DNA from: Pseudomonadota bacterium
Lineage (GTDB): Bacteria > Myxococcota > Myxococcia > Myxococcales > Myxococcaceae
Length of the DNA stretch: 15,289 nucleotides
Reading direction: 5' to 3'
Assembly: GCA_023424585.1 (NCBI GenBank)
Contig: JAFADT010000571.1
Location: forward strand, 1 to 15,289
Every line of letters begins with the position of its first letter. Positions within the stretch are counted from its first letter, which is position 1. The notes beneath the pieces were generated by a model. It worked only from the letters and a program-made list of their open reading frames with translations. It was not told where the DNA came from and did no database searches. Below are positions 2,167 to 15,289 of this stretch, piece by piece. The translations under genes were made by a program, and so were the position numbers.

Positions 2167-3282
2167 GTGGCCTCCCGGGTGAAGTGCCTGCTCGTCGATG
2201 ACCTGGAGGAGAACCTCCTGCCGCTCTCCGCCGTGCTGCGGCGCGATGACGTGGAGGTGCACTGCGCCCGCTCCGGCGCGGAGGCCCTGGAGCTGCTGCT
2301 GCAACACGAGTTCGCGCTCGCGCTCGTGGACGTGCAGATGCCGGAGATGGACGGCTTCGAGCTGGCGGAGCTGATGCGCGGCTCCGAGCGCACCCGCGAC
2401 GTGCCCATCATGTTCGTCACCGCGGGCACGGGCGACCCGCAGCGCACCTTCAAGGGCTACGAGGCCGGCGCGGTGGACTTCCTCCACAAGCCGCTGGAGG
2501 CCCAAGCGCTGCGCAGCAAGGCGGAGGTCTTCTTCCAGATGCACCGCCAGAAGCTACAGCTGGCGCAGCAGCTGGACACGCTCGCGGAGACCCTGCGCCT
2601 CAACGAGATGTTCACCGCGGTGCTGGGCCACGACCTGAGGAACCCCCTCTCCGCCATCCTCACCGCGGCGGACCTGCTCCAGCGCCGCTCGGACGACGAG
2701 GCCGTGAAGAGGACGGCCTCGCGGATGCTGGCCGCAGGCAAGCGCATGGGCCGGATGATCGAAGACGTGCTGGACCTGGCGCGCGCGCGGCTGGCGGGCG
2801 GCATTCCGCTGCGCCGGGGAGCGACGGACTTCGGGCAGCTGGTGCAGCGCATGGTGCAGGAGCACCAGACGGCGTGGCCGCGCCACCGCATCGAGGTGCA
2901 GCAGGACGGCGACCTCGTGGGGGACTGGGACGCGGACCGGCTGGCGCAGGTGGCCTCCAACCTCATCGGCAACGCGCTCCAGCACGGCGACGCCGCGGAG
3001 CCCGTGCGCATCCGCCTGGACGGCACGCGCGACGATGCCCTGCGCTTCGCCGTCATCAACATGGGCGTCATCCCGGCCCACCTGCTGCCCTCCCTCTTCG
3101 ACCCGTTCCGGGGCGGCCAGCAGCGCCGGGGCCGGGGAGAGGGGCTGGGCCTGGGGCTCTACATCGTCCAGCAGATCATCCACGCGCATCAGGGCGGCGT
3201 GGAGGTGCGCTCCGGCGCCGGGCCCTACACGGAGTTCCGCGTGGAGCTGCCGCGCGCGGCCGTGGACGTCATCAAGCGGTAG
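2167..3282 (+). CDS. Receiver-histidine kinase (REC-HisKA-HATPase), soluble
   Basis: Two-component signalling protein of 371 residues from GTG 2167 (387 from ATG 2119). An N-terminal receiver domain (about 5-120) has acidic residues D11/D12, phospho-acceptor D55 in LALVDVQMPEMDG, switch T85 and K108 in HKPLE. After a short coiled linker (about 122-148) comes a HisKA dimerisation domain with H155 in the H-box GHDLRNPLSA. The ATPase domain has the N-box (ASNLIGNALQHG, N265/N269) and G2 box GEGLGLGLYI (325-333). The G1 region reads VINMGVIP rather than the usual DxGxGIP. There is no membrane segment or sensor domain, so input probably comes through phosphorylation of the receiver by another kinase. 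The last 11 bp overlap the 3' end of the convergent phosphoesterase gene. Partners are unknown. Confidence 0.92.
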   Translation: MASRVKCLLVDDLEENLLPLSAVLRRDDVEVHCARSGAEALELLLQHEFALALVDVQMPEMDGFELAELMRGSERTRDVPIMFVTAGTGDPQRTFKGYEAGAVDFLHKPLEAQALRSKAEVFFQMHRQKLQLAQQLDTLAETLRLNEMFTAVLGHDLRNPLSAILTAADLLQRRSDDEAVKRTASRMLAAGKRMGRMIEDVLDLARARLAGGIPLRRGATDFGQLVQRMVQEHQTAWPRHRIEVQQDGDLVGDWDADRLAQVASNLIGNALQHGDAAEPVRIRLDGTRDDALRFAVINMGVIPAHLLPSLFDPFRGGQQRRGRGEGLGLGLYIVQQIIHAHQGGVEVRSGAGPYTEFRVELPRAAVDVIKR

Positions 3283-4225
3283 CGCCGTTGTCCGCGGGCA
3301 CGCTGCCCGCCCCGTCCGGGGACTTGGGAGCCCCCGGCTCCGGCTCCAGCGGCGGCAGCGTGTGCATCCCCCAGCGCTGCCCGGCCTGCCAGCTGGCGAC
3401 GCCGGACACGCCCCAGCCGGCGCGCTGGGCCTCGCGCCCCTCGAACTCCAGCCAGAAGACGGCGGTGTCCGGCCGCGCCGCCTGGTCCAGGCACGCCACG
3501 CGCGACAGGGTGCGCCCGTGCGAATCCAGCGCCACGGCGAAGGGCTTGTGCGAGTGCCCGCAGAGCACCCACTTCGGGTGCACCGCGTCCACCAGCCTGC
3601 GCGTCACCGGGTTGCCGATCCACGGCGAGGGCAGCGGGCGCTCGGGGCCCAGCCGCTCGTCGCGGACCTTCTGCACGATGCCCCGGGGCCACTCGTGGAC
3701 CAGGAGCAGGTCCACGTCCCGCGCCCTGGACACCCGCTCCACCTCCGGCGCGCGGAAGTAGCCCGCCTGCTTCGCCGTATCCAGCGACGTGGGGCGCTTG
3801 AGCGGCTGGTCGATGAAGCGCGGCGCGTGGATGCCGGACAGGTACGCCACGCGCAAGGGGCCCAGGGTGCGCAGGCCCGCGCGGCCCAGGTAGTGGACGT
3901 CCGGGGCCAGCTCCCCGCCGTCCTGCAGGTCGTGCAGCGCCTCGAAGTCCTCGTTGTTGCCGCCAATGAAGTACAGCGGCCGCTTCACGCGGCGGACGCC
4001 GTCCGCGTACTCGGCGAACTCGGCGGGCATGGAGCGCTTGGCGGCCTTGCGCCGGTGGTCATCCGCGCGGCGGAAGGCCTCCACGTCCCCCACCGCCAGC
4101 ACGAAGTCCACCCGCCGGCCGCGCGCCTGCTCCAGCGCGTCCAGCCACGCCTCCACCCGGTGGAAGCGGCCATGGATGTCGCCCAGCGCGGCGACGAGGA
4201 GGGGGTCCTGCGACATGTCCTTCAC
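3272..4225 (-). CDS. Dbr1-like calcineurin-type metallophosphoesterase
   Basis: Binuclear-metal phosphoesterase of 317 residues. Metal-site motifs are seen in order: G-D16-I-H18-G; G-D47-V; G-N90-N91-E92; H177 in VHEWPRG; and G-H224-S-H226. The intervening sequence follows the RNA lariat debranching enzyme (Dbr1) pattern as I recall it: GDVEAFRRADD (Dbr1 GDFQAVRNEADL), LYFIGGNNED (FIGGNHEA), GGELAPDVHYLGRAGL (GGWVAPNIYYLGLAGV), LLLVHEWPRGI (FLSHDWPRSI), and CGHSHKPFAVAL (SAHLHVKFAAL). Unlike Dbr1 it keeps Asp in the first motif, where Dbr1 has Cys, and it has Asn91 where most family members have the catalytic His. The C-terminal tail after about residue 290 is Pro/Glu/Gly-rich. GTG 4225 is preferred because GGGAGG (4232-4237) lies 6 nt upstream; ATG 4216 is the alternative. 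Substrate unknown: RNA 2'-5' linkage, cyclic nucleotide and nucleotide pyrophosphate are all possible. Confidence 0.85.
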   Translation of the reverse strand: MKDMSQDPLLVAALGDIHGRFHRVEAWLDALEQARGRRVDFVLAVGDVEAFRRADDHRRKAAKRSMPAEFAEYADGVRRVKRPLYFIGGNNEDFEALHDLQDGGELAPDVHYLGRAGLRTLGPLRVAYLSGIHAPRFIDQPLKRPTSLDTAKQAGYFRAPEVERVSRARDVDLLLVHEWPRGIVQKVRDERLGPERPLPSPWIGNPVTRRLVDAVHPKWVLCGHSHKPFAVALDSHGRTLSRVACLDQAARPDTAVFWLEFEGREAQRAGWGVSGVASWQAGQRWGMHTLPPLEPEPGAPKSPDGAGSVPADNGATA

Positions 4226-4259
4226 TCAAGGCCTCCCGCCCCGCCCTGTCGAGTCATCC

Positions 4260-4300: not shown

Positions 4301-7240
4301 CTACGGGCACCCCAGCGGATAGGTGATTTCCACGACGGCGCCCGGGGCGGGGGCGCGCAGCCGGTCGAAGATGACGGAGTTCGCGCGCGCGTCATAGTTC
4401 CAGCCCTCCGTCACCGGCAGCCCGTCCACGCGGACGACGATGGCGCCGGGATCCGCGGGCACCTCCGTCAGGAGGAAGGCCCGGTTGGGCCCGAAGGCGC
4501 TCTCCGACAGCTTCTCCAGCGACGCGGCCCAGTTGGGCGTGCAGATGCTCTCCACCACGCCGTTGAGCTTGTGGGCCAGCTCCATGTAGCGGGTGCCGGA
4601 GCTGCTGGCCGTGTTGCAGGTCGTCAGGTCCTCCGGGCCCACCACGGCGTTGAAGCTCACCTTGGACGGGTCGTTCCCCTTCAGGGCCAGGAGGTACGTC
4701 TCGTAGAAGGCCACCGGCTGCGTGCTGAAGTCCTCCTCGTCCGACAGCACGATGATGGCCAGCTTCGCGTCGTCGCGCAGGAAGCCGCCGTTGCCGTCGT
4801 TGGCCTGGGGCGTGCGCGGGTCGTCCAGGTTGTAGAGCAAGGGGTCGGACAGCGCGCGGTAGGCCGCGTCCAGGCCCTGCTCGTTCCAGTGGCACACGCC
4901 CACGTGCGTGTTGATGGCGAAGACGCCCGGCGCGTTGGGCGTGTCCGGCGTGATGATGCGCGGGCTGGAGCCGTCCACGGGGAACAGGCGCCCGTTCTCA
5001 CCGCCCAGCGCGCCGCCGGGGCACTCGGACCAGCCGCCCGGGGACGGGTCCAGGCCGGTGGTGGTGACGCCGATGCGGTAGTCCACCTGCGCGGCGGTGG
5101 CCGAGGACAGGAAGGCCGCGAAGTTCTCCCCCAGGCTCTGCTGCTCCTCCATCATGGAGCCCGAGTTGTCCACGACGAAGAGCACGTCCACGCGCGACTC
5201 CGCCTCCTGCACGAAGCGGTCCGTCTGCTCCGTCTTCTCCAGGCCGCGCCCCACCAGCCCCGCGCTGTAGACGGCGCCGTCCTTCAGCGTGAAGCGCACC
5301 GCCGCCGCGTCCTCGCCCTCCTCCCCGGGCGCGTACTTCGCGGTGAGCTTCACCCGCCCGCCCGCCGGGATCGTGGCCGGCAGCGCGCCGGACACCGCGA
5401 ACTCCGGGCCCGCCTGCTCCAGCTTCATGCCCGTCACCTTCACGTCCCCCGGGCAGTCGTTGTAGGCCATGAGCTCGCGGGTGCGCGGGCCGCACGCCAG
5501 CCGGGCGACGCCGAAGTCCACCGTGGTGGGCTGCACGGAGAAGCACCCCTGCACGCCCCGGCCCACCAGGTTCACCAGCGGGTGGCCGTGCGTGGGGTGG
5601 CTCACCCAGCCCTCCGCGAGCCCCTGGTACTCCCCTTCCGCGGGCGGCTGGAAGCGCACGATGAGCGTGGCCTTCTTGCCGGGCGCCAGCACGCTGTTGG
5701 GCAGCGGGGCCGCGCGGAAGGCGGGGTCCGACCCGGACGCCAGCTGGAGCGAGGACAGGAAGCACGCCTCCGCGCCGGTGTTCCTCAGCGTCACCCCCAG
5801 CGCCACCTCCGAGCCCACCGGCACCTGGCCGAAGTCCATGACCGACGGCAGCTCGAACTCGCACGGCGCGAAGGCCCTGCCCTCGCCGGACAGCGTCACG
5901 CCGTCCGTGGTGCTGGAGGCGCGCTGGCTGGAGGTGACGGCGAGCTGCCCCTGGCTGGGGCCGCCCACGCCCGCGCGCGGGCTGAAGGTGACGCCCACCT
6001 TCAGCGTGCCCCCGGGCGCCACCGGCTGGCGGGACGGCGCCTGCGCGAGCGTGAAGTAGCCCCCCGCCTGCGTGGTGAGGTTCAGCCCGGTGACGGTGGT
6101 CTCCTCGCGGCAGCGGTTGTTCACGGTGACGTCGCGCGTGGCCGTCATGCCGAAGGCCACCGGCCCGAAGTCCAGGTGCGAGGGCGTCACGTCCACGCAC
6201 GACGCGCCGCCCTCGCCCGCCAGCGTCACCTTGGGGCCGGGCGACGTCGTCTGGGGCTTGCGCACGGCCACCTCCACGCGGCCGTCGCGCACCCGGCCGT
6301 TCGCCACGGGCGTGAAGGCCACCCGCAGCTCCACCGCCGCGCCGGGCTGCAGCACGTCGTTGGGGAGCGCGGGCGCGCTCACCACCTTGAACACGCCGGA
6401 GGCGTCCTCCAGCAGCGCCGCGCCCTTGTAGCTGAGCGGCTCCGCGCCCTGGTTGCGCACGGTGATGCGCTCCTCGGCGGTGGCGCCCACCACCACCCGG
6501 CCGAAGTCCACGCGCAGCGGCGTCACCTCCAGCGCGCTGGCCACGCCCGTGCCCGTCAGCCGCACCTCCGCGGGCTCGCAGCCGTCGCACACGGCGACGC
6601 GCAGGGCCGCCTCCGCGTTGCCCAGCCGCACCGGGCTGAAGGCCACCGGCACCTTGCGCGTCTCGTGCGGCGCCAGCGTGGACGGCAGCCCCGCCCCGGC
6701 GGAGAACTCGTCCGCGTCCGCGCCCTCCACCGACAGCACCAGCGGGCTCTCCACGTCCGAGGGGTTGCGCACCGTCACCTCGCGCATCTCCACCAGCCCC
6801 AGGTTCACGTTGCCGAAGTCGAGCGCCGTCTCCGGCACCTCCACCAGCGCCTTCACGCCGCGCCCGCTGACGGGCACCTGCGTCGCCGCGCCGCCAGAGG
6901 CGTCCGTGAACAGCTCCAGCTGCCCCTGCACCGTGCCCTCCACGTCGGGCGTGAAGCGCACCTCGAGCTCGTGCTCCGCGCCCGCCGTCAGCGTGAAGGG
7001 CTCGAAGGCGGGGATGGTGACGTTGGGCAGCGACGCGCGCGCGCCCTCCACGCGGTACGACGCGCGCCCCTGGTTCGCCAGCCGCAGCGTCATCGTCTTC
7101 GTGCGGCCCACCGCGGCGGCGCCGAACTCCAGGAACTCCGGCCGCGCGGCGAAGCCCGTGCGTGCCTGCTGTGAAGTGGGCCGCTCACACGCCGTCGCCG
7201 CCACCACCACCGCCAACACCAGCCAACGGAGTCCACGCAT
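4301..7240 (-). CDS. Lipoprotein with six choice-of-anchor D (Hydin-like) repeats and a VWA domain
   Basis: Surface or periplasmic lipoprotein of 979 residues. The signal peptide ends in a lipobox, AATAC, with lipidated C18. Six immunoglobulin-like repeats of about 105 residues follow, roughly 31-129, 131-232, 234-345, 347-456, 459-564 and 565-668. Each opens with a DFG or EFG motif then a short V-G or L-G turn (LDFGNVNLG, VDFGRVVVG, LDFGPVAFG, MDFGQVPVG) and closes with a G-x-G strand such as LTGTGV or LAGEGG. This is the choice-of-anchor D/ASPM-SPD2-Hydin pattern. A von Willebrand factor A domain follows at about 680-910, with MIDAS D691-N-S693-G-S695 and a later LSDEED (832-837). The last 60 residues form a separate small domain ending in PLGCP. 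ATG 7240 has GAAGGGGA 6 nt upstream. A binding or adhesion role is inferred; ligand and anchoring side are unknown. The VWA contains several Cys residues that could form disulfides. Confidence 0.93.
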   Translation of the reverse strand: MRGLRWLVLAVVVAATACERPTSQQARTGFAARPEFLEFGAAAVGRTKTMTLRLANQGRASYRVEGARASLPNVTIPAFEPFTLTAGAEHELEVRFTPDVEGTVQGQLELFTDASGGAATQVPVSGRGVKALVEVPETALDFGNVNLGLVEMREVTVRNPSDVESPLVLSVEGADADEFSAGAGLPSTLAPHETRKVPVAFSPVRLGNAEAALRVAVCDGCEPAEVRLTGTGVASALEVTPLRVDFGRVVVGATAEERITVRNQGAEPLSYKGAALLEDASGVFKVVSAPALPNDVLQPGAAVELRVAFTPVANGRVRDGRVEVAVRKPQTTSPGPKVTLAGEGGASCVDVTPSHLDFGPVAFGMTATRDVTVNNRCREETTVTGLNLTTQAGGYFTLAQAPSRQPVAPGGTLKVGVTFSPRAGVGGPSQGQLAVTSSQRASSTTDGVTLSGEGRAFAPCEFELPSVMDFGQVPVGSEVALGVTLRNTGAEACFLSSLQLASGSDPAFRAAPLPNSVLAPGKKATLIVRFQPPAEGEYQGLAEGWVSHPTHGHPLVNLVGRGVQGCFSVQPTTVDFGVARLACGPRTRELMAYNDCPGDVKVTGMKLEQAGPEFAVSGALPATIPAGGRVKLTAKYAPGEEGEDAAAVRFTLKDGAVYSAGLVGRGLEKTEQTDRFVQEAESRVDVLFVVDNSGSMMEEQQSLGENFAAFLSSATAAQVDYRIGVTTTGLDPSPGGWSECPGGALGGENGRLFPVDGSSPRIITPDTPNAPGVFAINTHVGVCHWNEQGLDAAYRALSDPLLYNLDDPRTPQANDGNGGFLRDDAKLAIIVLSDEEDFSTQPVAFYETYLLALKGNDPSKVSFNAVVGPEDLTTCNTASSSGTRYMELAHKLNGVVESICTPNWAASLEKLSESAFGPNRAFLLTEVPADPGAIVVRVDGLPVTEGWNYDARANSVIFDRLRAPAPGAVVEITYPLGCP

Positions 7241-10554: not shown

Positions 10555-12003
10555 ATGGCCGAGACCTCGACCGCCCCCACCGCCCAGCGCTTCCCGCCCC
10601 AGATTCCCTACATCATCGGGAACGAGGCCTGTGAGCGCTTCAGCTTCTACGGGATGCGGAACATCCTCACGGTGTTCTTCATCGACTACCTCCTGCGCAC
10701 GCACGTGCCGGAGACGGCGGCGCGGGAGGCGCAGGCGAAGAGCCTGATGCACCTGTTCATGGCGGGGGTGTACTTCTTCCCGCTCATCGGCGGCTACCTG
10801 GCGGACCGCTTCTTCGGGAAGTTCCACACCATCTTCGTGCTGAGCCTCGTGTACTGCGGCGGGCACGCGTGCCTGGCGCTCTTCGAGGACAACGCCACGG
10901 GCTTCTACACGGGCCTGACGCTGATCGCGATCGGCTCCGGCGGCATCAAGCCGTGCGTGTCCGCGATGGTGGGCGACCAGTTCACGGAGAAGAACAAGCA
11001 CCTGGTGAAGAAGGTCTTCGCCATCTTCTACTGGACCATCAACTTCGGGTCGTTCTTCGCGTCGCTGTTCATCCCGCTGCTGATGCAGAAGTACGGGCCG
11101 GCGGTGGCCTTCGGCGTGCCGGGCATCCTGATGTTCCTGGCGACGGTCATCTTCTGGGCGGGCCGCAAGCACTACGTGCTGGTGCCGCCCACGGGCCGCA
11201 ACCCGCACTCGTTCTTCAAGGTGCTGGCCAGCGCGTCCCGGGGCCGGGCCGTGGAGGGCGGCACCTGGCTGGACAGGGCGAAGGCGGAGCACCCGGCGGA
11301 GGCGGTGGAGGGCGTGAAGGCGGTGTTCCGCGTGTCCGCGCTGCTCCTGCCCTTCGTGCCCTTCTTCTGGATGCTGTTTGATCAGAAGGCGTCCACCTGG
11401 GTGGTGCAGGCGCGGTCCATGGACCCCAACGTGGGCGGCATCGTGTTCCAGCCCAGCCAGATGCAGTTCATCAACCCCATGCTGGTGATGCTGCTCATCC
11501 CCTTCCTGACGGCCGTGGTGTACCCGGCCTTCCAGCGGATGGGCTGGGAGCTGACGCCGCTCAGGCGCATGCCCCTGGGGCTCATCATCGGCGCCGCGTC
11601 GTTCGTCATCGCGGGCTTCTTCCAGGTGGCCATGGAGGGCGGCCAGACGCTGAACATCGCGTGGCAGCTGTTGCCGTACATCGTGCTGACGGTGGCGGAG
11701 ATCCTCGTGTCCACCACGGGCCTGGAGTTCGCGTACACGCAGGCGCCCCGGGAGATGAAGGGCACCATCCAGAGCGTGTGGCTGGTGACGAACACGCTGG
11801 CGAACGTGGCGGTGGCCATCGCCGCGGCGCTCAACGTCTTCACGGGCGCCGCGCAGTTCTTCTTCTACGCGGCCCTGGCCGCGGCGGCCGGCGTGGGCAT
11901 GGCGCTGGTGGCCCGCCGCTACGTGGTGCGGGACTACTTCCAGGCGGACGCGCAGGCCCCCATGGACGGCCGCAACCCCGCCGTGGAGCCCAGGCCGGCC
12001 TAG
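10555..12003 (+). CDS. POT/PTR2-family proton-dependent oligopeptide transporter
   Basis: Inner-membrane major-facilitator protein of 482 residues that imports di- and tripeptides with protons. Its N terminus carries the POT signature ExxERFxxYG as E24-AC-E27-R28-F29-S-F31-Y32-G33, with Phe for the first Tyr. The PTR2 motif GGIKPCVSAMVGDQF is at 129-143 and FYWTINFGSFFAS at 158-170. The central FWMLFDQKASTW (271-282) and GLEFAYTQAP (389-398) are also typical, and the overall motif set resembles animal PepT1 and its bacterial relatives. About a dozen hydrophobic segments span the protein, and a charged cytoplasmic loop lies at about 204-252. ATG 10555 is the first in-frame Met 22 nt after the uvrA stop; the preceding G-rich TAGGGTGGGGG is a weak RBS. 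Its stop codon shares CTAG with the opposite-strand kinase. Substrate choice within POT (peptides, nitrate or others) cannot be fixed from sequence alone. Confidence 0.94.
   Translation: MAETSTAPTAQRFPPQIPYIIGNEACERFSFYGMRNILTVFFIDYLLRTHVPETAAREAQAKSLMHLFMAGVYFFPLIGGYLADRFFGKFHTIFVLSLVYCGGHACLALFEDNATGFYTGLTLIAIGSGGIKPCVSAMVGDQFTEKNKHLVKKVFAIFYWTINFGSFFASLFIPLLMQKYGPAVAFGVPGILMFLATVIFWAGRKHYVLVPPTGRNPHSFFKVLASASRGRAVEGGTWLDRAKAEHPAEAVEGVKAVFRVSALLLPFVPFFWMLFDQKASTWVVQARSMDPNVGGIVFQPSQMQFINPMLVMLLIPFLTAVVYPAFQRMGWELTPLRRMPLGLIIGAASFVIAGFFQVAMEGGQTLNIAWQLLPYIVLTVAEILVSTTGLEFAYTQAPREMKGTIQSVWLVTNTLANVAVAIAAALNVFTGAAQFFFYAALAAAAGVGMALVARRYVVRDYFQADAQAPMDGRNPAVEPRPA
12000..12003. other. CTAG shared by two convergent stop codons
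   Basis: The palindrome CTAG gives TAG on the plus strand (12001-12003) ending the transporter and TAG on the minus strand (12002-12000) ending the kinase. The two reading frames therefore overlap by exactly 4 bp with no intergenic terminator. Confidence 0.9.
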
Positions 12004-14222
12004 GGTCCCGCCCGCGCGGCCGGCTCCGCCGGGGGTGACGCGGGGTGCCCCCGGCGGGGGAGCTCCACCGTGAAGAGGGCGCCCCGACCCGCCTCGCTCT
12101 CGACCCGGACCGAGCCCCCCAGCCGCTCCACGAGCTGGTTCACGATGTGGAGGCCCAGGCCCAGCCCCCCGTAGTGGCGCGACGACACCCCGCGCTCGAA
12201 GGCCCGGAAGATGCGCGCGTGCCGCTCCGCCGGGATGCCGATGCCCTGATCCCGGACCTCCAGGCGGGCCGTCACGGCGTCCCCCTCCACCCGGACCGCG
12301 ATGGGCCTCCCCTCGCCGTACTTGATCGCGTTCGAGAGCAGGTTGGTGACGATCTGCTCCAGGCGCGACCGGTCCCACACGCCCGGCATCGCCGTGTCGG
12401 CGTGGACCTGGAGCCGGGTGCCCGACGTGGCCAGCTCGGGGGCGAAGCGCGCCGCGATGTCCCGGACCAGCGCGGCGAGGTCCACCTCCTCGAACTCGAG
12501 CTCGAGCCGCCCGGCCTGGATGCGGGAGACGTCCAGCAGGGTGTTGATGAGCTTCGCCATCCGCTTCGCCTGACGCTCGATGACCTCCAGCGAGTGGCTC
12601 ACGGCCTCCAACGGCGCGGTCCGGAGCGCGCCGGTCCGGGCGAGGCGCAGCAGGCCCTGCACGGACAGCTGGAGGGACGTGACCGGCGTCTTCAGCTCAT
12701 GGGAGGCGATGGAGAGGAACTCATCCCGCAGGCCAATCGCCAGCTGGGCCTGCTGATACAGGCGGGCGTTGTCCAGGGCCATCGCCGCGCGGCGGTCCAC
12801 CTCCTGCGCGAGCGCGAAGTCCGCCGGGCCATACCGGCCGCCGCCCTTCAGGCGGGCGAGCGTGAGCGCGCCGAGCGCATGCCCCCGCGCGAGCAGCGGC
12901 ACCGAGATCCAGGACTGGAACTCGACGACCTCGGACAGGCCCTGTCCGTCGCGGACGCAGCCCAGCGACATGGAGGCGCAGCCCTCCGGGCAGAACTCCG
13001 GCTCGGCCAGGCGGAGCACCCGCCCCGGGCCATGCTCGGCCTCCAGGTCCGGCAGCGAGCAGTGCATCCGCGCGGGCGCGGTGGCGCGCAGCGCGTCGGA
13101 GCGGGCCTCGGTGATGCGCTGGAAGGCGTGGCCTCCGTCCAGCAAGTCCACCGCGCACCAGTCGGCGAACCGCTGGACGGTCAGCGCGGCCACGCTCCGC
13201 AGCGCGGCCTCGGGGGCGAGCGAGCCGGTGAGCAGCCCGGACGCCTCCGCCAGGAGCGCGGACCGCCCCTCCTGCTCCTCCGCGCGGGCGCGCGCCTGCT
13301 GCTCCCGCTGGAAGGTCTGGTCGCGCTCCTGCTCGGTCCGGCGGTGCGCGGTGATGTCGATGCCGGTGCCGATGACGTACTCAATCGCGCCCGACTCGCC
13401 GCGCAGGACGTTGCTGGACCAGGAGATGAGGCGGCGCTCGCCCGTGCGTGTCAGCCAGTGATGCTCGGTGTGCTCGCTCCCCAGCCCGGCCGCGAGCATG
13501 GCGAAGTTCCTTTCAATCCGCGCCGCTTCGTCCGGCGGAGGGAGCCGCGTCCAGAAGTGCGCGCCGCGCAGCTCCTCGAAGGAGCAGCCCGTCATCTCCT
13601 GGCACGCCCGGTTGAAGCGGACGATCCGCCCTTCGGGATCCAGGACGATCACCAGGGCGCGGGCCGTGTCCAGGACCGCCGAGCTGAAGTCCCGCTCGCG
13701 CTGGAGCGCGCGCTCGCTGTCCAGGGCCCGCGCGAAGAGCTGCCGGTGGACGAGCGCGGTGCGGAGCACGCCGCCGAGCCGCTCCATCATGCCCCGGTAT
13801 TGCCGCGGCAGCCGAGGCTCGCCGTCGAAGTACAGCAGCAGCACGCTGGGAGGGGCCCCGGCGTCGTCGATGGGCACGGACCACCGCACGAGCCCCGGCG
13901 AGTCCAGCTCCGGATAGGGCAGGTCGACCCAGAGGGGCGCTGGCAGCCCCGGCCGCGGGGGCAGCTCCGGAATCGGGAGCTGGCGGGACGCCGCGGACAG
14001 CCCGCTCGCGCCCAGGAGCCCGACCCGCCCCCGCGCATCCGGCTGGAGCCAGAGGGCGACCGCGCACCCCAGCCGCTCCGAGGCCCGGGCCAGGAAGTCG
14101 TCGGCGGGCTCGTGGGGATCCAGCAGGTCGAGCGCCGCGACGGTGAGCTCCTGGAGCACGCTCAGCAGCGCGAGCTGCTCCTCGGTGAGCTTGGGGTCCC
14201 CGTCCGCGCCATGGTGCGCCAT
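12000..14222 (-). CDS. Soluble GAF-PAS-GAF histidine kinase, FIST-linked
   Basis: Sensor kinase of 740 residues from ATG 14222. Domains in order: a GAF-like N-terminal region (about 20-160); a short coiled coil; a PAS domain (about 178-290, with IVLDPEGRIVRFNRA and the PAC end GTGIDITAHRR); a coiled coil rich in Glu/Arg/Gln (about 294-320); a second GAF (about 325-490, opening with FADWCAVDLL); HisKA with H508 in ASHELKTPVTS; and an ATPase with N-box (NLLSNAIKYG), G1 box DQGIGIP (658-664) and G2 box GGLGLGLHI. All catalytic motifs are intact. No membrane segment is seen. The second GAF holds a cluster of C388, C411, C415 and C422. ATG 14222 has GAGG 6 nt upstream (14229-14232); GTG 14234 is an alternative with no spacer. 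It lies 16 nt downstream of a FIST gene, so FIST probably supplies its signal. The partner response regulator is not in the window. Confidence 0.93.
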   Translation of the reverse strand: MAHHGADGDPKLTEEQLALLSVLQELTVAALDLLDPHEPADDFLARASERLGCAVALWLQPDARGRVGLLGASGLSAASRQLPIPELPPRPGLPAPLWVDLPYPELDSPGLVRWSVPIDDAGAPPSVLLLYFDGEPRLPRQYRGMMERLGGVLRTALVHRQLFARALDSERALQRERDFSSAVLDTARALVIVLDPEGRIVRFNRACQEMTGCSFEELRGAHFWTRLPPPDEAARIERNFAMLAAGLGSEHTEHHWLTRTGERRLISWSSNVLRGESGAIEYVIGTGIDITAHRRTEQERDQTFQREQQARARAEEQEGRSALLAEASGLLTGSLAPEAALRSVAALTVQRFADWCAVDLLDGGHAFQRITEARSDALRATAPARMHCSLPDLEAEHGPGRVLRLAEPEFCPEGCASMSLGCVRDGQGLSEVVEFQSWISVPLLARGHALGALTLARLKGGGRYGPADFALAQEVDRRAAMALDNARLYQQAQLAIGLRDEFLSIASHELKTPVTSLQLSVQGLLRLARTGALRTAPLEAVSHSLEVIERQAKRMAKLINTLLDVSRIQAGRLELEFEEVDLAALVRDIAARFAPELATSGTRLQVHADTAMPGVWDRSRLEQIVTNLLSNAIKYGEGRPIAVRVEGDAVTARLEVRDQGIGIPAERHARIFRAFERGVSSRHYGGLGLGLHIVNQLVERLGGSVRVESEAGRGALFTVELPRRGHPASPPAEPAARAGP

Positions 14223-14238
14223 GCGCCACCTCACTCCC

Positions 14239-15289
14239 TCATCCAGGCAGGGCGACCACCACCGATGTCTTGTTGTGGAACTGGGGGGCCCCGCCTCCCA
14301 TGGCCCCCACCTCGCCCAGGGTCAGGCAGCCCACGACCGGGACACCCGCTCCGAGCGCGTCCTGGAACCTCGAAAGCTCGTCCCGGACGCCCTCCTCCCC
14401 CAGGAGGAGGTAGCGGGAGACGCAGTCGAACACCACCGCGCCGCCCAGCGGGCCGGGGGTCGACTCCCGGGCCTGGGTGGCGGCGCGGCCCGCGGCGTCG
14501 AGCAGCTCCGCGCGCCGACCCTCCATCACGCGGACCAGGGAGCCGTCCGGGACCTCGGCGATACAGCGGACCGAGCCATCGGGCTCGACGGCCAGCGGGT
14601 CGCGGATCACGAACTCGCCGTTGGCCTGCGGAATCCCCAGCGGGTGGGTCATCGCGAAGCGGGGGAAGCGCTGCGCGTCCAGGGCGTCCCCCCTGCGCTC
14701 GGCGGTGTGCCGGTAGACCTCGAAGGCGCGCTCGTAGTCGAGCTCGACGGCGGTCGGGCCCCGGGCCTTCGTGACCTGCGAGGGCGGACCATACGGAGAC
14801 CAGCCGTGCTGGAGGCCCACGCCGAACGGCGACTGGGCGTCCAAGGCGATCACGACCACCTGGTCCTGATAGGCGTGCCCCCGGGTGAACTGGGCCGTCT
14901 TCACGAACCGGACGTCGTTGCCCGCGCCGCCGCCCGCCCAGCGGACGCCCGCGCCCGCCTCCTGTTGGGCCCCGCGCACGACCTCCGTCGGGTTGCCGCT
15001 CAGCGCGTCCGGCAGGACGAACAGCATCCGCCGGTATCCGGGCGGCTTGGGAGGCAGCCGGCCGAAGGCCTCGGCCACCGCCGCGCGCCCGGCCGCCCGC
15101 GGGCTCACGCTGACCGGCCCGCCCATGCCCACGCCGACGCGGAAGTCGCCGCCGAGGAAGAGCGCGATGACCAGGCCCTGGAGCAGCAGCTCCGTCCCAG
15201 CGAAGACGCCCGCCGCGCAGCCCCCGGCCCAGGGGATGTCCCCGAGCGTCGCGCCAACTGCCGACGCCAGCGCCGCGGCGTCGTACTGG
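14239..15289 (-). CDS. FIST-domain sensory protein, 5'-truncated by window edge
   Basis: Signal-transduction protein carrying FIST N and FIST C domains, a predicted small-ligand (possibly amino-acid) sensory module named from F-box and intracellular signalling proteins. The 349 visible residues run in from the right edge: the frame is open past the internal ATG at 15132, and the upstream residues (GDIPWAGGCAAGVFAG, then LVIALFLGGDFRVGVG) are FIST N sequence, so 15132 is not the start. Typical FIST features include GNPTEVVRGAQQ, GGGAGND, the HPLGIP segment opening FIST C, and the C-terminal VVGCLTLGEVG ... FHNKTSVVVALPG. Roughly 30-50 N-terminal residues are probably missing, judging from usual family length. 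No signal peptide can be assessed. The stop lies 16 nt before the kinase start, indicating one transcript with FIST first. The ligand is unknown. Confidence 0.9.
   Translation of the reverse strand, partial: QYDAAALASAVGATLGDIPWAGGCAAGVFAGTELLLQGLVIALFLGGDFRVGVGMGGPVSVSPRAAGRAAVAEAFGRLPPKPPGYRRMLFVLPDALSGNPTEVVRGAQQEAGAGVRWAGGGAGNDVRFVKTAQFTRGHAYQDQVVVIALDAQSPFGVGLQHGWSPYGPPSQVTKARGPTAVELDYERAFEVYRHTAERRGDALDAQRFPRFAMTHPLGIPQANGEFVIRDPLAVEPDGSVRCIAEVPDGSLVRVMEGRRAELLDAAGRAATQARESTPGPLGGAVVFDCVSRYLLLGEEGVRDELSRFQDALGAGVPVVGCLTLGEVGAMGGGAPQFHNKTSVVVALPG

Follow-up and report, generated by a model that had tools for sequence, protein, structure and literature searches.

The window, a stretch of 15,289 nucleotides, carries on its reverse strand a 317-codon open reading frame (3272..4225) for a metallophosphoesterase (MPP) of the Dbr1/CWF19L1 clade. 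The candidate GTG start at 4225 is preceded by GGAGG at 4232-4236, and an alternative ATG start lies three codons in (4216), where homologs such as P0003 begin in the alignment. Residue numbers below refer to the 316-residue translation of 3272-4222 (reverse strand), with the GTG codon left out, and "A" denotes the group formed by the window protein and its orthologs. The window protein scored 51.8 bits with Pfam Metallophos (PF00149), whose cut-off is 21.5; a scan with NCBIfam gave weak matches only, all under their cut-offs, and no RNA feature scored above the Rfam gathering scores in the window. In comparisons with four orthologs dN/dS was 0.27-0.44, so the A gene is under purifying selection.

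The conserved upstream neighbour of the A gene, ending 75 bp before its start, encodes an ASH-repeat protein (Pfam ASH; 4301..7240, reverse strand). Its 979-residue product contains ASH repeats and a VDVLFVVDNSGSMM stretch that resembles, by eye, a von Willebrand A domain. A homolog of this gene precedes A in the same orientation at 33 of 38 A loci; the spacing is no more than 0.2 kb at 30 loci, 0.5 kb at a single locus and ~3 kb at two. As for the five A loci without this gene, L017 lies at a contig end, two are short-flanked, and L041 and L050 lack it. A UvrA homolog was present in 5 of 8 long A loci, and searches with retron-type and other queries found no reverse transcriptase (RT) gene in the window or in those eight loci. 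Farther along the window, at 12000-15132 on the reverse strand, a PAS-GAF histidine kinase gene adjoins a same-strand gene for a FIST-domain sensor protein, possibly forming a sensory pair.

Taking a match at E<=1e-100 as presence, we found A in 71 of 195 Myxococcota genomes, 70 of which fall in one family (taken as genomes G001 and G061-G155) where it is near-universal; outside that family, A was found in 1 of the 99 other Myxococcota genomes searched. One genome, G119, matched the A gene in two frames. A is described here as a vertically inherited, syntenic gene of the Myxococcaceae core. That it might be a viral or phage gene was considered and rejected, since no relative was confirmed when viral contigs were scanned with a pattern, and tblastn of phage records returned none.

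By sequence, profile and predicted fold, the nearest solved family of A is Dbr1, with CWF19L1. A phmmer search of the PDB at E<=10 returned seven distinct sequences, namely five of Entamoeba histolytica Dbr1 and two of CWF19L1, and not a single other MPP. The profile built from 35 A members matched Dbr1 at 5.9e-28 and CWF19L1 at 3.4e-11 and 8.2e-6, with LpxH following at a non-significant 0.088. As a control set, the 33 PF00149 loci of the nearest genome compared (G001) were scored against a eukaryotic Dbr1 HMM. The A ortholog in that genome (L175) reached 115.6 bits, five other loci scored at most 5.0 bits (E of at least 0.57), and 27 of the 33 loci gave no match at E<=10 with filters off. 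This control and the gap in structural Z rule out a generic MPP that looks like Dbr1 by chance; LpxH, aq_1956, purple acid phosphatases and other MPPs have the superfamily fold and metal motifs in common with A. The view of the initial annotation that the protein is not a generic MPP therefore holds, Dbr1 being closer to it than the other families are. The alignments of A to Dbr1 stop at model residue 266.

Five segments of the window protein had originally been quoted as Dbr1-like in content and order. All five are present, in the order given, in the reverse-strand frame at 3272..4225, and the overall likeness far exceeds chance, but segment 2 (GGNNED) has Asn where Dbr1 has its proposed catalytic-acid His. 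Segment 3 is in order but looks closer to CWF19L1: it reads GGELAPDVHYLGRAGL in the window protein and GCELAENITYLGRKGI in human CWF19L1, and a 55-residue stretch containing it matched CWF19L1 at 0.0015 versus 0.016 for Dbr1.

A second set of relatives, group B, consists of bacterial Dbr1-like MPPs that keep the GNHE motif (P0121-P0240, L037-L040, L043, L044 and many of L051-L098). Protein searches were evaluated on the best 120 of 320 matches for A relatives and the best 120 of 691 for B relatives; A may therefore also occur beyond Myxococcota, and among the matches listed, B occurs in Myxococcota, Acidobacteriota, Cyanobacteria, Pseudomonadota, Planctomycetota and others. Its distribution within Myxococcota is patchy (30 of 195 genomes), and all 30 B-positive genomes also encode A. 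B matched Dbr1 at 6.6e-31, and the median Dbr1 HMM score was 169 bits for B versus 112 bits for A. In phages, B had weak matches only, in 12 records and at 22-26% identity. When we looked for a conserved partner gene near B or D, no cluster of neighbours other than B's own recurred at over 6 of the 41 loci. The record BNCN01000008.1 (L052) is titled "Comamonas sp. KCTC 72670" and is probably a mislabelled myxobacterial genome. More distant groups occur in Actinomycetota (D), in other Myxococcota (C) and in Woesearchaeota, where proteins of the Dbr1 clade with GNHEA are encoded at 2464-3120 of L124 and 218-919 of L129.

A defence role was also considered and set aside, since the PADLOC model PDC-S10 (PDLC04908) is, by its looks, a related MPP model and is not diagnostic. 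It gave no match to a second A member, P0113, and matched the window protein weakly at 1.4e-4, E. histolytica Dbr1 at 1.3e-3, one archaeal protein at 3.9e-5, and three B, three C and one D protein at 2.5e-7 to 2.6e-9. The PDC-S10 model may belong to the wider Dbr1-like clade.

The placement of A was assessed in a tree of 95 rows, a hand-picked spread that included 22 of the 52 Dbr1 matches and one partial CWF19L1 sequence, and in a second tree made from 70 of these rows, with the GNN columns removed and 18 Dbr1 rows. A formed one clade in the 95-row tree (94/91). The 22 Dbr1 rows formed a single clade that excluded A (100/99), as did the 18 rows of the second tree (100/98), placing A outside the eukaryotic Dbr1 clade. 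The sister to the eukaryotic Dbr1 clade in the 95-row tree was the Woesearchaeota L124 protein, on a long branch (96/82). CWF19L1 grouped with A in that tree (98/95), on a very long branch (2.5); AU tests rejected neither a Dbr1+CWF19L1 clade (p-AU 0.32) nor an A+B clade without CWF19L1 (p-AU 0.19). When the GNN columns were removed, the A clade stayed (100/96) and CWF19L1 fell in no well-supported set. These trees indicate that A branches off to one side within the Dbr1 clade, and we conclude that A is an MPP of the Dbr1/CWF19L1 clade and is not a Dbr1 by membership.

The active site was compared residue by residue using 35 aligned A members (54-86% identity to the window protein) and a residue map on the 95 rows (17 A, 38 B, 10 D, 2 archaeal, 5 C, 22 Dbr1 and 1 partial CWF19L1). 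All of the following features lie on the reverse strand. In A, each of the seven metal-ligand positions is occupied by a residue of ligand type, namely D15 and H17 of motif I (D15-x-H17, 4172..4180), D46 of motif II (G45-D46, 4085..4090), N89 of motif III (G88-N89-N90-E91, 3950..3961), H176 of H176-E-W-P179, which corresponds to HDWP of Dbr1 (3686..3697), and H223 and H225 of G222-H223-S-H225 (3548..3559). D46, N89, H176, H223 and H225 are invariant in all 35 members, and D15 and H17 are conserved in at least 90% of the 35, three rows of which lack the N-terminus. Each of Dbr1 His16, Asp45, Asn90, His180, His230 and His232 is matched in 17/17 A rows. In the partial human CWF19L1 sequence, by comparison, three of the five metal-ligand positions covered carry E, N and S instead.

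Several residues that are important for debranching in Dbr1 differ in A. The GNHE motif of Dbr1 reads GNNE in all 35 aligned A members, with N90 taking the place of Dbr1 His91. At this position, Asn is found in all 17 A rows and in CWF19L1, and His in all 38 B, 10 D, 5 C, 2 archaeal and 22 Dbr1 rows. Position 14 is Asp in every A row, as the initial annotation had observed for the window protein, and in 72/72 prokaryotic rows overall; it is Cys in 21 of the 22 Dbr1 rows, the exception being an E. histolytica entry with Ser. R63, at the end of a basic strip (R57-R58-K59-A-A-K62-R63, 4034..4054), occupies the position of Dbr1 Tyr64, which is Arg in 17/17 A rows and Tyr in 33/38 B rows. The region aligned with the lariat recognition loop (residues 129-157, 3752..3838) ends in R157, the counterpart of Dbr1 Arg158, and this Arg is kept in all 17 A and all 22 Dbr1 rows but in only 5 of 38 B rows. 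The span corresponding to Dbr1 129-159 is 31 residues long in every A row, 31-40 in Dbr1 and 18 in CWF19L1, and the Dbr1 loop RNA contacts K134, F136, F155 and H156 become A, R/K/T, G and Y/H, respectively, in A rows. The Dbr1 C-terminal domain (PF05011, PF20890) was absent from the seven Pfam families listed at E<=1 for the 35 A members, in agreement with the original impression that no such domain was evident; nor did these families include the CwfJ domains that form the C-terminal part of CWF19L1. B resembles A in its clade, in the Asp of motif I, in H[DE]WP and in having no C-terminal domain listed, and differs from it in the His, the Tyr and the loop Arg just described.

The data show a predicted MPP fold closest to Dbr1, kept ligand positions, a loop of the length found in Dbr1, invariant basic residues and a fixed GNN. 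The most likely reading, at about even odds, is that A is a metal-dependent phosphoesterase of altered chemistry that acts on a nucleotide or nucleic acid and is not an efficient debrancher. Such an enzyme would bind two metal ions and hydrolyse a phosphoester. Its substrate would probably be a nucleotide or nucleic acid gripped by the loop together with the basic HRRKAAKR strip, and water or the metal centre, instead of a His, would help the leaving group. MPPs with other residues at the GNH position are active, including LpxH (GNRD) and YfcE (GNCD). The substrate class is a guess drawn from the clade and the basic strip. Three observations weigh against this phosphoesterase reading: the GNN is also present in CWF19L1, and Drn1, the yeast/human relative of that protein, is non-catalytic; the loop and Arg that have been described as peculiar to Dbr1 are kept, which could mean a branched substrate after all; and A overlaps strongly with retron RTs by lineage (62 of 71 A-positive genomes, discussed below).

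If the likeness to Dbr1 reflected ancestry only, A could act on a small molecule or a lipid and have no role with nucleic acids. GN-x-E variants with other substrates do exist, such as the GNRD of LpxH, LpxH is the next match of the A profile, and the conserved neighbour is an ASH-repeat protein without a known RNA link. However, the LpxH likeness is not significant and A conserves the loop that Dbr1 is held to use for binding RNA, and we regard such a substrate as distinctly improbable.

The main rival to the phosphoesterase reading is a non-catalytic role like that of Drn1, which is described in partial text of PMC10470207 as a non-catalytic Dbr1 homologue that binds Dbr1. A would then correspond in bacteria to Drn1/CWF19L1, as a factor that binds nucleic acid or protein and perhaps modulates B or a branched-nucleic-acid pathway. 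A and human CWF19L1 have in common both the GNN and a GGELA..YLGRAG..YLSG stretch, and CWF19L1 joins A in the 95-row tree. That link is weakened by the length of the CWF19L1 branch, the AU result for a Dbr1+CWF19L1 clade and the loss of support once the GNN columns are removed. Moreover, the N-terminal domain of CWF19L1/Drn1 (human 8ro2_L1) has lost several metal ligands (three of the five covered) and has a loop of 18 residues, compared with 31 in A, which keeps every ligand position. A match to B was missing in 41 of the 71 A genomes, indicating that B is no obligate partner of A. We therefore view a non-catalytic role as possible but unlikely.

The initial annotation had suggested, as plausible, that the protein opens the 2'-5' branches of retron msDNA or group II intron lariats. 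Dbr1 is indeed the closest family, its loop and Arg are kept in A, and in vitro the 2'-5' bond of retrons is cleaved by Dbr1 (PMC8989520, in the portion available). Retron RTs, counted wherever a single type XIII-like RT gave any match at E<=1e-10, were present in 62/71 A-positive versus 19/124 other Myxococcota genomes. Within the family, the counts were 62/70 for genomes with A and 9/26 for those without (p 4e-7, although genomes are not independent events), and a hand count by genus in the family gave 9/13 A-positive versus 3/13 A-negative genera. This lineage overlap is strong and is the best remaining point for the debranching idea, but exceptions run both ways: nine A-positive genomes had no retron match, including three from one genus at 99-100% completeness, and 19 retron genomes had no A. 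The fetched flanks of A (the window and eight long loci) contained no RT gene. Group II introns, detected in 59 genomes (16 of them only below the Rfam cut-off), did not track with A, as they were found in 26/71 A-positive versus 33/124 other Myxococcota genomes (p 0.15) and were missing from 45 of the 71; within the family the comparison was 26/70 versus 9/26 (p 1.0).

The four features in which A departs from Dbr1 (E. histolytica 4pef, 4peh, 5k78), besides falling outside its clade, are ones that matter in Dbr1. According to the portion of PMC4176325 available, Dbr1 His91 is well placed as the catalytic acid, Cys14 is invariant and required for debranching, Tyr64 stacks on the branchpoint adenine, and the lariat recognition loop (130-158) and the C-terminal domain are each required for complementation. 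A lacks the C-terminal domain and has Asn in place of His91, Asp in place of Cys14 and Arg in place of Tyr64. In addition, Myxococcus xanthus is recognised as a producer of branched RNA-linked msDNA, judging from reference titles in PMC8989520, and the genus Myxococcus encodes A among the matches listed, which would imply that the branch is not efficiently removed there. Because four features important to Dbr1 are altered or missing, and because M. xanthus makes branched msDNA while its genus encodes A, lariat debranching by A appears unlikely, efficient debranching is not expected, and the proposal of a functional 2'-5' debranching enzyme, which the residues, the group II counts and the flanks leave unsupported, strikes us as quite unlikely.

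The name "lariat debranching enzyme" has already been given automatically to several A and B proteins (from one source, among the matches listed), and for the A-type proteins it is probably wrong as a statement of function. The titles and abstract openings returned by our literature search included no paper on a bacterial Dbr1 and no test of that name. "Dbr1-like" appears in the available parts of PMC6022877 and PMC4569894 as an item in a generic list of MPP families, and the terms DBR1 and CWF19 are absent from PMC9887622, on the origin of the spliceosome. B proteins are more promising candidates for debranching than the protein of the window gene. Within genera, B did not track with group II introns, which were present in 7/23 B-positive versus 2/4 B-negative genomes of g19 and in 1/5 versus 1/11 of g1.

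It is conceivable, if very doubtful, that B (a Dbr1-like enzyme with GNHE) and A (a CWF19L1-like partner with GNN) form, in some Myxococcaceae, a prokaryotic counterpart of the eukaryotic pair. If the GNN were shared by descent, the split between enzyme and partner would predate eukaryotes, and bacterial 2'-5' branched nucleic acids such as retron msDNA and group II lariats would be the original substrates. The wider finding is that prokaryotes have a Dbr1-like family, a widespread sister group of Dbr1 in which some branches have the His of GNHE (B and others) and one does not (A). According to the portion of PMC10470207 available, no enzyme other than Dbr1 is known to hydrolyse the 2'-5' links of lariats selectively. 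The prokaryotic sister group makes testable both the bacterial debranching of retron msDNA and group II lariats and the origin of the eukaryotic enzyme and its partner.
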